Shown piece after piece: positions 54,644 through 58,284 of a stretch of 64,000 nucleotides of DNA. The stretch's first letter is position 1; every line of letters begins with the position of its first letter. The notes under the pieces are model-generated. The model had not been told where the DNA came from, searched no databases, and saw nothing but the letters and a program-made list of their open reading frames with translations. The translations under genes and the position numbers were made by a program. The stretch comes from Phytoactinopolyspora halotolerans (GTDB lineage Bacteria > Actinomycetota > Actinomycetes > Jiangellales > Jiangellaceae): assembly GCF_010550675.1 (NCBI RefSeq), contig NZ_JAAGOA010000008.1, positions 186,001-250,000 of the forward strand, written 5' to 3'.

Positions 54644-55807
54644 ATGCCCAGCGCTGTGATCATCGACGCCGTCCGCACCGCCTCCGGCAAGGGCAAACCG
54701 GACGGTGCGCTTTCCGAGGTCCATCCGGTCGAGCTGCTGGCGACGACGCTGCGCGCGCTGCTCTCCCGCAACGACGTCGACCCGGCCGTCGTCGACGACG
54801 TGATCGCCGGCTGCGTCTCGCAATCCGGCGAGCAGTCGATCAACATCGGCCGCAACGCACTGCTGGCGGCAGGGCTCCCGGAGTCGGTGCCGGCCACCAC
54901 CATCGATCGGCAATGCGGCTCCAGCCAGCAAGCCGTCCACTTCGCGGCTCAGGGCGTGCTGGCCGGCGCATACGAGGCGGTGATCGCCTGCGGCGTGGAG
55001 TCGATGAGCCGGGTGCCGATGTTCAGCAACACCCAGGGCAAGGATCCGTACGCCCCACTCGCCGAGCGCTACCCGGAGGGCCTGGTCCCGCAGGGAATCA
55101 GCGCCGAACTGATCGCTGCCCGCTGGAAGCTCAGCCGGGAGGAGCTGGATGCCTTCGCCGCGCTCTCGCACGAGCGCGCGGCTGCCGCGACGAGAAGCGG
55201 CGCGTTCGAGGGCCAGATCGTTCCGGTCGGCGAGCACACCGTCGACGAGACGATCCGGCCGACGACCACCCCCGAAGGCCTGGCGGGTCTGAACCCGTCC
55301 TTCTCCGATCCTGCCCTGGCCGAGCGGTTCCCGGAGATCACCTGGTCGATCACGCCGGGCAACGCGTCCCCGCTGACCGACGGCGCCTCCGCCGTGCTGA
55401 TCATGGACGAAGACCGGGCCGCGACTCTGGGCCTGCGGCCACGCGCGCGGTTCCACTCCTTCACCGTCACCGGCAGCGATCCCTTGATGATGCTCACCGG
55501 GATCATGCCTGCCACCGAGAAGATCCTGGCCCGCTCCGGCCTCGGCATCGGTGATCTCGACGCGTACGAGGTCAACGAGGCATTCGCCCCCGTGCCGCTC
55601 GCGTGGTTGCGCGAGTTCGACGCCGATCCGGAGCGGCTCAACCCCAACGGTGGCGCGATCGCCCTCGGGCATCCGCTCGGCGCGTCCGGGACCAAGCTGC
55701 TGACGACGCTGGTCAACCACCTGGAAGCCACCGGCGGCCGCTACGGGTTGCAGACGATGTGCGAAGGCGGCGGGATGGCGAACGCCCTGATCATCGAACG
55801 CCTGTAG
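54644..55807 (+). CDS. Acetyl-CoA C-acyltransferase (FadA-type thiolase)
   Basis: 387 residues, ATG with GGGAGG upstream. Motifs: DRQCGSSQQAVHFAAQGVL (nucleophilic Cys), [52 protein letters not shown], and the C-terminal MCEGGGMANALIIERL. It is a second thiolase distinct from paaJ and more like fatty-acid or steroid beta-oxidation enzymes. It lies outside the visible PaaR operators. Confidence 0.92.
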   Translation: MPSAVIIDAVRTASGKGKPDGALSEVHPVELLATTLRALLSRNDVDPAVVDDVIAGCVSQSGEQSINIGRNALLAAGLPESVPATTIDRQCGSSQQAVHFAAQGVLAGAYEAVIACGVESMSRVPMFSNTQGKDPYAPLAERYPEGLVPQGISAELIAARWKLSREELDAFAALSHERAAAATRSGAFEGQIVPVGEHTVDETIRPTTTPEGLAGLNPSFSDPALAERFPEITWSITPGNASPLTDGASAVLIMDEDRAATLGLRPRARFHSFTVTGSDPLMMLTGIMPATEKILARSGLGIGDLDAYEVNEAFAPVPLAWLREFDADPERLNPNGGAIALGHPLGASGTKLLTTLVNHLEATGGRYGLQTMCEGGGMANALIIERL

Positions 55808-55892
55808 GCACGGCATGGCGGGTCGCCCTCGCCATAGAGCGAACTCCGGCCCACCTGATGTGATGGACCCTGAGTGCGCCGACTGTCAGTTG

Positions 55893-56954
55893 CTATTCTC
55901 CGCTCTGTCGCTCCGCTCGCCGAAGACCCCGGGTGACCATAAATTCCACTGCACGGTTCATATTGATCGGAACCACGGACTTTCCGGGATGCATGTTGGG
56001 CCACACCCGCACCAACTCATCAACGAATCCCTGACCCACATCGTCGATGCCGGTGAAGTCGACCTCAACTATTTCGAAATCAGACTCTAGCCCGTCAAGA
56101 AGGCGTCTCGCCTCACTCCGCGACACAAACATCGTTCCCAACTCAAAGAGACGCACGGTCGTACGCGTGCGCACAAATTCCGAGTCGTCGGTGAATTGGC
56201 GGAACACATCGCCAATGACCCGCTCTGTATGTGGGTCAAGCTGACAGACAACTGCCGTCCCCGCAGCAACCGGGGCAGCACCCAAAGCCATGTCATCGCG
56301 CAGGTTATCGACCGTCCAGCGGATACCAGATGACGTGATGCGAAAGAGATCGACGACCTTAGAAGTAAAGAATATGCCTTCGCCCGTATGCCGCGCTGGG
56401 TCGGTGGTTCGTTTCCCCTTGGATAACTCCTGAATCGCCTCAAAGTCGCTCGCAAGATGTAACCCACTGCGAAGTCTCTGAAACGCCCCGATGCCATCGT
56501 CACGCATCTCGAAGCACCAAAGGTCCTCGCTTACCCACCAGCGAATCTCTACTACTCGGCCGCTGGAGTGGTCGATCGCATTGTTTAGCATTTCCATGAA
56601 GGCATATGCGGCTATCTTGCCCGCTGGACTGGCGCTATCGAGTTCCAGATTCTTGCATATATCTCGCCACACCTCATGCTCTTCCAAGCCTTCCAAGGCA
56701 AGCTCTTGGCGCCAGTCAGCAGGGCGTCCAGGCGTCACGGCCGCGGCGGTGCGGCTCCCGAGGGCACGGCGTGCAACCGCTGCTCTGACTTCCGCCAAGT
56801 CGAAGAGGCGATGCCCACCGGTGGTTCGCGACGAAGGGATCTCTCCAGAGTCAGCCAACTGCCGAATCCGGCTTGGTGAGAGCCCCAGCTCACGCGCCAC
56901 ATCTGAGACGCGCACGAGCCGCACCACATCGCTCTTCCCTACGTCTTCCATCAT
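55893..56954 (-). CDS. HTH - GHKL ATPase - STAS-like (DUF4325) fusion regulator
   Basis: 353 residues. N-terminal MerR/excisionase-type HTH (14-60; RVSDVARELGLSPSRIRQLA, GGHRLFDLAEVR). A GHKL ATPase domain (95-240) has N-box EMLNNAIDHS (121-130), G1 DDGIG (152-156) and HTGEGI (189-194). A C-terminal STAS-like DUF4325 domain (262-345) has FEIVEVDFTGIDDVGQGFVD. No phospho-acceptor His domain is seen, so it is not a classical sensor kinase. One protein thus joins DNA binding, an anti-sigma-like ATPase and an anti-anti-sigma-like module. The start codon faces a CTACA-N7-TGTAG repeat. Lower GC and different codon use than the neighbouring paa genes suggest separate acquisition. Confidence 0.85.
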   Translation of the reverse strand: MMEDVGKSDVVRLVRVSDVARELGLSPSRIRQLADSGEIPSSRTTGGHRLFDLAEVRAAVARRALGSRTAAAVTPGRPADWRQELALEGLEEHEVWRDICKNLELDSASPAGKIAAYAFMEMLNNAIDHSSGRVVEIRWWVSEDLWCFEMRDDGIGAFQRLRSGLHLASDFEAIQELSKGKRTTDPARHTGEGIFFTSKVVDLFRITSSGIRWTVDNLRDDMALGAAPVAAGTAVVCQLDPHTERVIGDVFRQFTDDSEFVRTRTTVRLFELGTMFVSRSEARRLLDGLESDFEIVEVDFTGIDDVGQGFVDELVRVWPNMHPGKSVVPINMNRAVEFMVTRGLRRAERQSGE

Positions 56955-56963
56955 CCGACAGAG

Positions 56964-57018
56964 AACCTACACCTCGAGTGGAATTTCTTTTACCGGCAAA
57001 CCTACACCTCCCCTGTAG
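56964..57018 (-). promoter_or_regulatory. Operator-like repeats upstream of the HTH-GHKL-STAS gene
   Basis: AACCTACACCTC occurs twice as a direct repeat, 35 bp apart (56964-56975 and 56999-57010). The second copy also forms the inverted repeat CTACA (57002-57006), N7, TGTAG (57014-57018). The first copy is 10 bp before the start codon. A MerR-like HTH usually binds such an inverted repeat in its own promoter. Confidence 0.6.
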
Positions 57019-57166
57019 TTTATGCGCACTCTGCAGGCAAGGTTCACGGGATCGCGGTCGTGTTCGTCACCACACGTGGGTGTATACGCTTCGGCCCCCT
57101 CTCACCCATCGACAGACGACATGGCACGCTGGACCTGCACGACGAGGATTGGAAGGGCTCGCCCAG

Positions 57167-58069
57167 ATGGTGCCGTGGCAAGGCATTCTCGTGTTCGCGC
57201 TGCTCGGTGTCGCCTGCACGGCGGGCGCCGGATACCGGCTGCACAAGGAACGGATCCTGCGCAGCCGCGGCGCGCGCACACTGGCGGTCGTGGTGGCCCA
57301 CGATGAGCACTACGGGGTCTCCGGCGGCGGCATCACCGCGCGGAACCGCTCCGGCGACCCTGGCACGCCGACGCGCAGGCCGTGGGCGGTGTCGACCGGG
57401 GATCCCCACCTCGTCTCCGCTCCGATCGTCGAGTTCACGACGGTGGATGGGCGGACGGTGCGCGCACGCTCCCGAGTGAGTTCGAACACCAGCGTCGCGG
57501 TACCCGGCCGGGTGATGACGGTCTACTACGACCCGGACGACCCGGAGGACGTCGCGATCGTCGGTCACGGCCGCGGCGTCCTCCGGGTGTTCGCGCTCAT
57601 CGGCGTCCTCCTGCTCATCACGACAGGGTTGCTGCTGGTGGTCTCCGAGGACACGCTGAACACCGCGGTCCCGGTCGCGGTGCCGCTCATTCTCGGCAGC
57701 GTGTTCTTCAGCATCGGAGCCTACGGCGTCGGCCGGGTGTGGGCGCTGCGTCGGCGGGGGACCGTCACCGAGGGGACCGTCGTCGGTGAGACCACCACGA
57801 GCACCCGTGAAGGGCTGACTCTACGGCATCCCGTGGTGCGGTTTCGGACCACCACCGGCCACGACATCGAGACAGCATCCGAACGCGGCACGCTGCGGCG
57901 ACGTGCGCAGCCGGGCCAGTCCATCCGGCTCCGCTACCACCCCGACGATCCGTACCGCGTGCTGCTCGTCGGCGACGGCGCCCGGCCGCTGTTCTGGATC
58001 TTCGCCCTCGTAGGCCTGACCGTCCTCACCGCCACGGTCACCATCGCCACGTTCATACTCACCCGCTAA
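57167..58069 (+). CDS. Tandem DUF3592 membrane protein
   Basis: 300 residues from ATG 57167, with GGAAGGG upstream. Two DUF3592 units, each a small beta domain with a YYDPDDPEDV or YHPDDPYRV motif, are joined by transmembrane helices (about 5-22, 140-160, 175-195, 278-298). Such proteins are widespread in actinobacteria and of unknown function. It converges with the SARP gene across two palindromic elements. Confidence 0.8.
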   Translation: MVPWQGILVFALLGVACTAGAGYRLHKERILRSRGARTLAVVVAHDEHYGVSGGGITARNRSGDPGTPTRRPWAVSTGDPHLVSAPIVEFTTVDGRTVRARSRVSSNTSVAVPGRVMTVYYDPDDPEDVAIVGHGRGVLRVFALIGVLLLITTGLLLVVSEDTLNTAVPVAVPLILGSVFFSIGAYGVGRVWALRRRGTVTEGTVVGETTTSTREGLTLRHPVVRFRTTTGHDIETASERGTLRRRAQPGQSIRLRYHPDDPYRVLLVGDGARPLFWIFALVGLTVLTATVTIATFILTR

Positions 58070-58086
58070 CCCCACCCCACACCCGC

Positions 58087-58180
58087 CCTAAATGATCATG
58101 TGAAGTGGGTTTTCTCGTGCCGTACCAGGTCTGCAGACATGGGGGTGCTGGAGAAAACCCACTTCACATGATCATTTAGG
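58087..58180. repeat. Palindromic element 1: 30-bp perfect inverted repeat, 34-base loop
   Basis: Left arm 58087-58116 starts CCTAAATGATCATGTGAAGT and right arm 58151-58180 ends CATGATCATTTAGG. The arms are perfect inverted copies of 30 bp. The loop is 34 bases. Both ends carry the CCTAAAT/ATTTAGG border. It lies between convergent genes (58069 and 58310), so it may also act as a bidirectional terminator. The design resembles a MITE or REP-type element. Confidence 0.85.
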
Positions 58181-58185
58181 TGACG

Positions 58186-58284
58186 GTCGTGCGGACAGCG
58201 ACTCGCCGGCGCTTCCGCCCCAAGCTCAAGGGCGGCCCAGCGGCCCCCCAAATGTCCGCGAACCGTGGTCGCTGTCCGCACGAC
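58186..58284. repeat. Palindromic element 2: 17-bp perfect inverted repeat with inner hairpin
   Basis: Arms GTCGTGCGGACAGCGAC (58186-58202) and its perfect inverse (58268-58284) enclose 65 bp. An inner hairpin CCGCCC (58215-58220) / GGGCGG (58230-58235) sits within. It begins only 5 bp after element 1 and shares no sequence with it. Two unrelated palindromic elements stacked in one convergent gap is striking. Confidence 0.8.

Follow-up and report, generated by a model that had tools for sequence, protein, structure and literature searches.

What a protein might do with a DNA-binding head, an ATPase and a STAS-like domain in one chain, and whether it controls its own promoter, is the question raised by this locus. 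The window, a stretch of 64,000 nucleotides from Phytoactinopolyspora halotolerans, carries an intact ORF of 353 amino acids at 55893..56954 on the minus strand, for which a GTG at codon 10 or 11, found by eye behind AGGGAAG, is a possible alternative start. The protein consists of three domains, all encoded on the minus strand: an HTH domain of the MerR/excisionase type with a BldC-like fold (residues 12-63, 56766..56921), a SpoIIAB-like GHKL ATPase domain placed by the model and its structural match (residues 79-243, 56226..56720; 77-243 in the structural comparison), and a STAS-like DUF4325 domain placed by Pfam and the model (residues 262-352, 55899..56171). The Pfam score of DUF4325 (PF14213) is 45.4 bits over residues 282-336, well past the cut-off of 23, and residues 15-63 pass both HTH_17 (34.4 bits, cut-off 27) and MerR (31.1 bits, cut-off 28.2). 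The head also passes TIGR01764 (29.2 bits, cut-off 28.8) and falls outside the BldC subfamily as defined by the NCBIfam model NF033787 (24.3 bits, cut-off 77). A PADLOC mad1 match of the protein covers the HTH alone and was discarded.

The full-length AlphaFold2 model, built from 28 sequences, recovered the three domains (mean pLDDT 86.9, pTM 0.74), a check for which the original prediction had asked. The modelled head resembles BldC (6amk_A, TMt 0.84 over 50 columns). For the ATPase domain, the best structural match is SpoIIAB (1til_E, Z 15.0, rmsd 2.3, 134 residues aligned), followed by RsbV/RsbW entries (chain 6m36_G, Z 12.8); the fold is clear in the model despite a HATPase_c_2 score slightly below the Pfam cut-off (25.1 bits over residues 117-210, cut-off 27.4). 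Modelled alone, the C-terminal domain reached a pLDDT of 82.1 and, among the matches listed, met mostly STAS domains, with middling Z scores that are all below 8 (SpoIIAA 1h4y, Z 6.9, rmsd 3.2, 82 residues). Between the HTH and the ATPase the model places a low-confidence linker (residues 65-76) and neither a His-acceptor (DHp) nor a sensor domain, and Pfam finds no DHp there either. The fusion of a MerR/BldC-like HTH, a GHKL ATPase and a DUF4325 STAS-like domain in one chain thus holds in sequence and model, and with it the earlier claims of a STAS-like C-terminus and of a missing His phospho-acceptor and sensor.

Comparison of 49 family rows, near-copies included, revealed a strictly kept nucleotide site. 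The N box EMLNNAIDHS (residues 121-130, 56565..56594, minus strand) has E121, N124, N125 and H129 in all 49 rows, and the G1 box DDGIG (residues 152-156, 56487..56501, minus strand) has D152, G154 and G156 in every row, so that the two boxes, originally described as intact, show none of the non-conservation in homologues that would have told against the switch. A further family motif, KGKxTT...HTGEGIFFTS (residues 179-198, 56361..56420, minus strand), is in our reading the ATP-lid region; its G180, T183, H189, G191 and G193 are unvarying and its K179 is kept in 48 rows. G232, T233, S278 and R279 are likewise found in 49/49, and residue 280 is Ser in 48 rows and Thr in one. The invariant residues of the ATP site argue for nucleotide use by the protein.

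Analysis of the STAS-like domain gave a different result for its acceptor. The loop VGQGF (residues 306-310, 56025..56039, minus strand) has Gln308-Gly309 where other DUF4325 proteins have Ser, and the Ser/Thr that stands at the start of the second helix in phosphorylatable STAS domains of the SpoIIAA, CapS and VapS type is absent. Positions 307-309 read G-Q-[GA] in nearly all family rows and lack Ser/Thr in 47/49, so that the control by phosphorylation of the STAS-like part that had been predicted is unsupported. Two viral-contig members, L119 and L126, retain Ser309 (GHSF and GPSF) and may be intermediates between a phospho-switch and the Ser-less forms. Outside the fused family, Ser309 is present in 13 of 14 DUF4325 places, that is, PF14213 matches of the phylum scan belonging to no fused member; these include L109, thought to be a chance match, and amount to fewer independent cases because L104, L105, L107, L110 and L111 look like close kin. 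A profile of five standalone DUF4325 proteins matches the solved Escherichia VapS (9z7o, E 7.8e-4), which makes DUF4325 the VapS-type domain or a near relation of it. In this alignment A-S-P-F of VapS lies against [TA]-x-S-F, which puts the VapS Ser at position 308 of the window protein, adjoining 309. This residue, Ser 66 of the crystal chain, would be Ser48 of the paper if the chain carries 18 extra N-terminal residues. PMC13373217 reports that the S48E form of VapS fails to counteract VapC toxicity and that S48A abolishes phage protection. The STAS-like domain of the window protein looks, by its sequence, like a VapS-type domain without the acceptor, and we infer that the Ser was lost in the fused family rather than gained elsewhere. 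Thr/Ser followed by Arg at 278-279 occurs in 9 of the 12 outside DUF4325 sequences that cover the place (counted by eye on the alignment), and so seems to be a trait of the domain at large and not a new acceptor. A Ser-less GQAF loop is also found in a viral-contig frame of 91 amino acids (L199:3983-4258) that holds a STAS-like domain only.

The 49 rows of the GHKL-DUF4325 fusion, with a mostly HTH-like N-terminal part, come from Actinomycetota, Chloroflexi and viral contigs, so an architecture unique to its own genome was rejected. A core profile search found full-length orthologues (E < 1e-100) in 7 of 393 genomes of the class, the own genome included. PF14213 matches occur in 29 of 396 genomes of the phylum, 15 of the 29 places being the fused family (own member and one fragment included), and the fused family is present in 4 of 400 genomes of the phylum to which a Chloroflexi MAG belongs. 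Relatives lie in 30 IMG/VR viral contigs (28 distinct and two more, one of the two being the STAS-like-only frame of L199). Two proteins tried, P0001 and L067, had no match in 50,697 phage and 72,556 plasmid records, and a DNA search for L067 in E. coli genomes found none. Among the first 35 aligned members, window included, matches at E <= 0.01 comprise DUF4325 in all 35, HATPase_c in 32, MerR in 8 and the winged HTH_24 in 19. When 16 further members were scanned singly, 10 matched an HTH or transcription-regulator model at the same threshold (L207 MerR, L121 the Xre-type HTH_31, the rest winged or similar, several of them below the Pfam cut-off), and six gave no HTH match (L114, L115, L119, L124, L127 and L206), L119 lacking its N-terminal part as called. 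The family head is thus usually, not provably always, an HTH by sequence. On the tree of the 49 cores, the eight actinobacterial MerR rows cluster among other-headed rows with support of 80/84, which is not strong. The head label changes 3 times on this tree against an average of 9.4 for shuffled labels, rows that are neither MerR nor L121 being pooled into one group. These changes suggest that the head has been exchanged while the GHKL-STAS core was kept.

A thiolase-like gene (54644-55807; the name comes from inspection by eye and from its relatives) runs toward the window gene in convergent orientation, and a DUF3592 gene (57167-58069) is transcribed divergently from it. A stretch of 2374 bp (55808..58181) has no counterpart in the same-genus genome G002, where 236 bp separate the thiolase from a BTAD regulator. 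The GC content inside the ORF is 54-63% in windows, against ~69-73% in the neighbours, and the gene is absent in the four other genomes of the genus that were searched. It was probably acquired horizontally, transfer being the simplest reading; G002 may also have lost something at this site, since relatives of the DUF3592 gene, which lies within the 2374 bp, are found in G001 and G005. A 94-bp near-palindrome (58087-58180, fold of -62.4 kcal/mol with RNA parameters) marks the right-hand end of the stretch that G002 lacks; it is a highly repeated REP- or MITE-like element whose 27-bp arm matches 82 forward and 82 reverse places in the 7.3-Mb genome at <= 3 mismatches (reversed control, 0), many of the matches listed being paired in inverted orientation at a distance of 61 bp. 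Further on, at 58186-58202 and 58268-58284, the 17-bp arms GTCGTGCGGACAGCGAC form a perfect inverted repeat with 65 bp between them.

The architecture search that the original prediction had proposed yielded relatives, forming the 49 rows, and no recurrent neighbour gene. No partner gene recurs: the commonest neighbour type, recombinases named by eye, stands at 4 of 50 loci, for some of which the flank is just 1.5 kb. No Pfam family occurs in more than 3 of the 104 neighbours of the 22 non-viral loci, a set that amounts to about half of the 213 neighbour ORFs, with viral-contig and some short ones left out. PADLOC matches are scattered through the same 104 neighbours (mad2 methyltransferase 3; mREase_II, SoFic, PDC, TIR and Vsr one each), and a defence island is unsupported. 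By eye, positions in viral contigs vary: beside an integrase or recombinase, before a terminase, or among tail or lysis genes.

Analysis of the DNA upstream of the 353-aa ORF revealed two exact copies of AACCTACACCTC at 56964 and 56999, 35 bp apart. A direct repeat of at least 12 arose in 0 of 2000 shuffles of 80 bp, in 0.05% for 100 bp and in 0.15% for the 212 bp of upstream DNA. The repeat extends to 23 nt at 78% identity, giving a proximal operator-like copy at 56964..56986 (minus strand, gene strand AAATTCCACTCGAGGTGTAGGTT) and a distal copy at 56999..57021 (minus strand, gene strand AAACTACAGGGGAGGTGTAGGTT), so that the feature truly ends at 57021. The paired form GTGTAGRTT-N10-40-GTGTAGRTT occurs at one place in the 7.3-Mb genome, the window gene's own promoter, and at 0 mismatches no other gene in that genome carries it. 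The inverted repeat CTACA-N7-TGTAG (57002-57018), which lies within the distal copy, was rejected as a signal of its own: one 5-bp inverted repeat is seen against 0.45 expected in 80 bp and 0.71 in 100 bp, and two against 2.04 in 212 bp. The upstream sites originally pointed out therefore stand beyond chance as a AACCTACACCTC repeat (0-0.15% of shuffles) and at chance level as CTACA-N7-TGTAG alone. A simple scan found no sigma-70-type promoter upstream of the gene, and an RNA element there was rejected, with no Rfam match in 55500-57500.

Comparison with the orthologues gave a looser picture. The upstream DNA of L064 holds a perfect dyad with 10-bp arms, AAACCTAACA-N7-TGTTAGGTTT, in the geometry of CTACA-N7-TGTAG. 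The 7-bp-spacer dyad is not borne out as a clade-wide rule: of the nine MerR-type members, L064 and L002 alone pass the shuffle test at that spacing, the window is not among them, and the arms in L002 are an unrelated word. The closest relative of the window protein, L031, has TAGGTTT twice upstream, 31 bp apart; L065 has CAA[A/T]ACCTCACTA at 31 bp, its spacing being 30/31 bp, and L064 has TAAA[C/T]CTAACAGT at 53 bp. The window-type word GTGTAGGTT is weakly conserved in its own clade (single-locus P 0.04-0.9 in 8 orthologues), and the spacings of the window (35 bp), L031 (31 bp) and L065 (30/31 bp) include none at 21-22 bp. Judged by sequence, the predicted operator has good support in the window and the strongest support across the whole family, but weak support in the window's clade, because the word is weakly shared there and the spacing differs.

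For the family, upstream regions were compared with 179 control regions that precede other long ORFs of these loci; dinucleotide shuffles of each region served as its background, at three thresholds. Removal of near-copies (L084, L088, L078, L118, L125 and L115) kept 43 of the 49, and L119 was also removed, leaving 42, because its called ORF lacks the N-terminal part, so that the DNA before it could belong to the coding sequence; L112 and L120, for which there is no upstream DNA, stand outside the 49, and L099 is a fragment cut off by the end of its contig. At the middle threshold, direct repeats at 21/22 bp occur in 10/42 family and 7/179 control regions (P 1.6e-4), and repeats at multiples of 21.6 bp, two helical turns, in 16/42 against 16/179 (P 1.4e-5), which supports autoregulation. 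Over the three thresholds P ranges from 1.6e-4 to 3e-4 for 21/22 bp and from 1.4e-5 to 3e-4 for all multiples; inclusion of L119 gives 11/43 and 17/43, with P 5e-6 in place of 1.4e-5 for the multiples. AT-rich regions alone show 10/21 against 8/80 (P 3e-4). Shifting the offset of the series gave 17/42 for a start at 21 and 1-12/42 elsewhere, the 12 belonging to the neighbouring offset 22, which has lags in common with 21; controls ranged from 9 to 31 of 179, with 15 at offset 21. The pattern was first noticed in early members and tested afterwards, and among the rows fetched later 3 of 5 show it (P 0.008; 0.04 at a looser threshold). In 26/42 family upstream regions there are no repeats at multiples of 21.6 bp. 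Members with non-MerR heads carry another word, GTTKACAA-like, with spacings that cluster at 21/22, 43/44 and 65 bp. Such sites number 48 against 14.4 expected in 40 non-MerR rows and 36 against 31.8 in the 179 control regions, a count that includes near-copies and uses a word picked from the same data. L205 and L206 have three GTTKACAA-like copies ~21-22 bp apart directly before the start. The word resembles a -35 box, and its TTGACA/TTTACA core could be partly promoter.

We propose a solitary single-chain autoregulator, a reading to which we give an even chance, in which the HTH holds its own promoter and the packing of the GHKL and STAS-like parts is set by nucleotide in a protein without the usual phospho-site. 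Its basis in sequence and models is the three domains, the conserved ATPase motifs, the missing acceptor and the repeats found upstream in the window and in part of the family; autoregulation is suggested by the combination of an HTH with repeats in front of the gene that encodes it, both here and in some of the relatives. The HTH would bind the repeated sites at 56964-57021 and repress the promoter, and the SpoIIAB-like domain would bind ATP. The STAS-like domain, whose counterpart in relatives is a phosphorylatable docking partner, would act as a partner that is always attached and that can receive no phosphate at the usual position. The nucleotide state, perhaps together with a signal, might then alter GHKL/STAS-like packing within or between chains, and the altered packing would change how the HTHs pair on the repeats. 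The self-controlling switch foreseen earlier is thus kept in its operator-like repeated sites and in the phased repeats of the family, and given up in its phosphorylation step; an ATP switch without STAS phosphorylation is plausible. More tentatively, and with some doubt, the whole family may be a fused kinase-substrate pair that lost the substrate Ser, an autorepressor run by ATP occupancy on tandem sites two helical turns apart, spread by mobile DNA with exchangeable HTH heads.

Several other explanations meet the same evidence. The GHKL domain might act in trans, as a kinase or sequestering factor, on a sigma factor of the host or on a STAS protein encoded at another locus, with the fused STAS-like part as built-in inhibitor and the HTH controlling only its own gene. 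We regard this as unlikely: the closeness to the anti-sigma kinase SpoIIAB and then to RsbV/RsbW entries, the lack of a recurrent neighbour gene and a paired site found in the genome solely at the own promoter all suit it, yet no partner was identified, and most members keep an HTH-like N-terminal part, which differs in type from one to another. That the gene is instead a prophage or island accessory, for exclusion, defence or lysogeny control, with GHKL-STAS as the effector and the HTH silencing it, seems improbable. Relatives in 30 IMG/VR contigs at variable places, the patchy distribution, low GC and absence at the same site in G002 point that way, as does the defence link of VapKSC and CapKS in the text available of PMC13373217; against it stand the lack of any match for the two proteins tried in 50,697 phage and 72,556 plasmid records and PADLOC matches that are no more than scattered in the set of 104 neighbours from the 22 non-viral loci.

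We give slightly less weight still to a phospho-switch in which the GHKL domain transfers phosphate to S278 or S280 of the STAS-like part, in place of the usual residue, and so releases the DNA; use of such a different residue is the one form in which the phosphorylation predicted earlier could hold. The intact N box, S278 in 49/49 rows, S280 in 48/49 with one Thr, and Ser309 retained in L119 and L126 would fit, but the usual place lacks Ser/Thr in 47/49 rows and has Ser in 13/14 outside places, and the Thr/Ser-Arg at 278-279 in 9/12 outside sequences looks general to the domain. The known phospho-step is also hard to reconcile with a STAS-like partner that sits in the same chain and has no acceptor Ser. 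Least probable of all, by a small margin, is that the repeats before the gene belong to a promoter or arose by chance, the DNA targets of the protein lying elsewhere: TTGACA/TTTACA does resemble a -35 box and 26/42 rows lack phased repeats, but the enrichment is phase-specific against controls and recurs in a small hold-out, and the window holds an exact 12-base repeat.

In textbook accounts, GHKL-STAS switches are phospho-relays that control sigma factors. The SpoIIAB-SpoIIAA and RsbW-RsbV pairs have their GHKL and STAS folds in common with the window protein and, as described in PMC13373217, differ from it in being separate proteins with an acceptor Ser and no DNA-binding domain. BldC of Streptomyces shares the HTH fold and the direct-repeat sites, although, according to PMC5859096, it has 68 residues and no other domain, against three domains here. 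Adjacent genes with the same two domains form the pairs L091, L096, L101 and L106, each a GHKL-type protein of 284-330 aa with a DUF4325 protein of 96-122 aa that has Ser309, like VapK-VapS. The GHKL call in L096 and L106 is profile-based, the Pfam match being weak or lacking; Pfam finds no HTH in the four pairs, the DUF4325 partners of L096 and L106 being outside the scan. By eye, no VapC-like gene stands beside these pairs in the ORF lists, and L101 has an integrase-like ORF. L100 joins GHKL and DUF4325, the window protein's two domains, in one frame.

The closest characterised system is CapK-CapS, as described in the accessible part of PMC13373217 (EMBO J 2026), by which GHKL-STAS switches also control immune operons. 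There, GHKL, STAS and HTH parts are joined in the regulators CapK (HTH-STAS-GHKL) and CapS (STAS-wHTH); the STAS-HTH protein represses its own promoter and is released when the GHKL kinase phosphorylates it and the dimer dissociates. Immune operons follow in 348/443 cases, activation is by ssDNA, and CapK responds to DNA damage. The likeness lies in a GHKL kinase domain, a STAS domain and an HTH in transcription control. Judged by that part of the paper, CapK-CapS consists of two adjacent genes with phosphorylation at CapS Ser54 and a downstream immune operon, whereas the window protein is one chain in the order HTH-GHKL-STAS without an acceptor, and the ORF list and Pfam recognise no immune operon beside its gene. 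From VapK-VapS-VapC of the same source, VapS resembles DUF4325, being the profile's solved match, but it stands alone as an antitoxin that needs its Ser48 and has no HTH, and the window gene has neither VapC nor the Ser.

The single-chain switch had been put forward as new. In the literature searched, mostly without subscription journals, no description of the single-chain form was found, DUF4325 appears in two papers, in tables that give no function, and a search for GHKL, STAS, helix-turn-helix and fused returned, in the texts available, CapK-CapS and a jumbo-phage survey with the terms unrelated. The fusion nevertheless recurs in other genomes and viral contigs, and joined GHKL, STAS and HTH parts are known from CapK-CapS. 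A Ser-less family that keeps the ATPase and its docking partner in one chain would show that a GHKL-STAS pair works without phosphotransfer, and DUF4325 gains a concrete reading as the VapS-type acceptor domain, degenerate in the fused family. Set beside the two-gene systems, the window protein represents a genuine variant, scattered in its occurrence, of the GHKL-STAS kind of regulator, with everything in a single chain.
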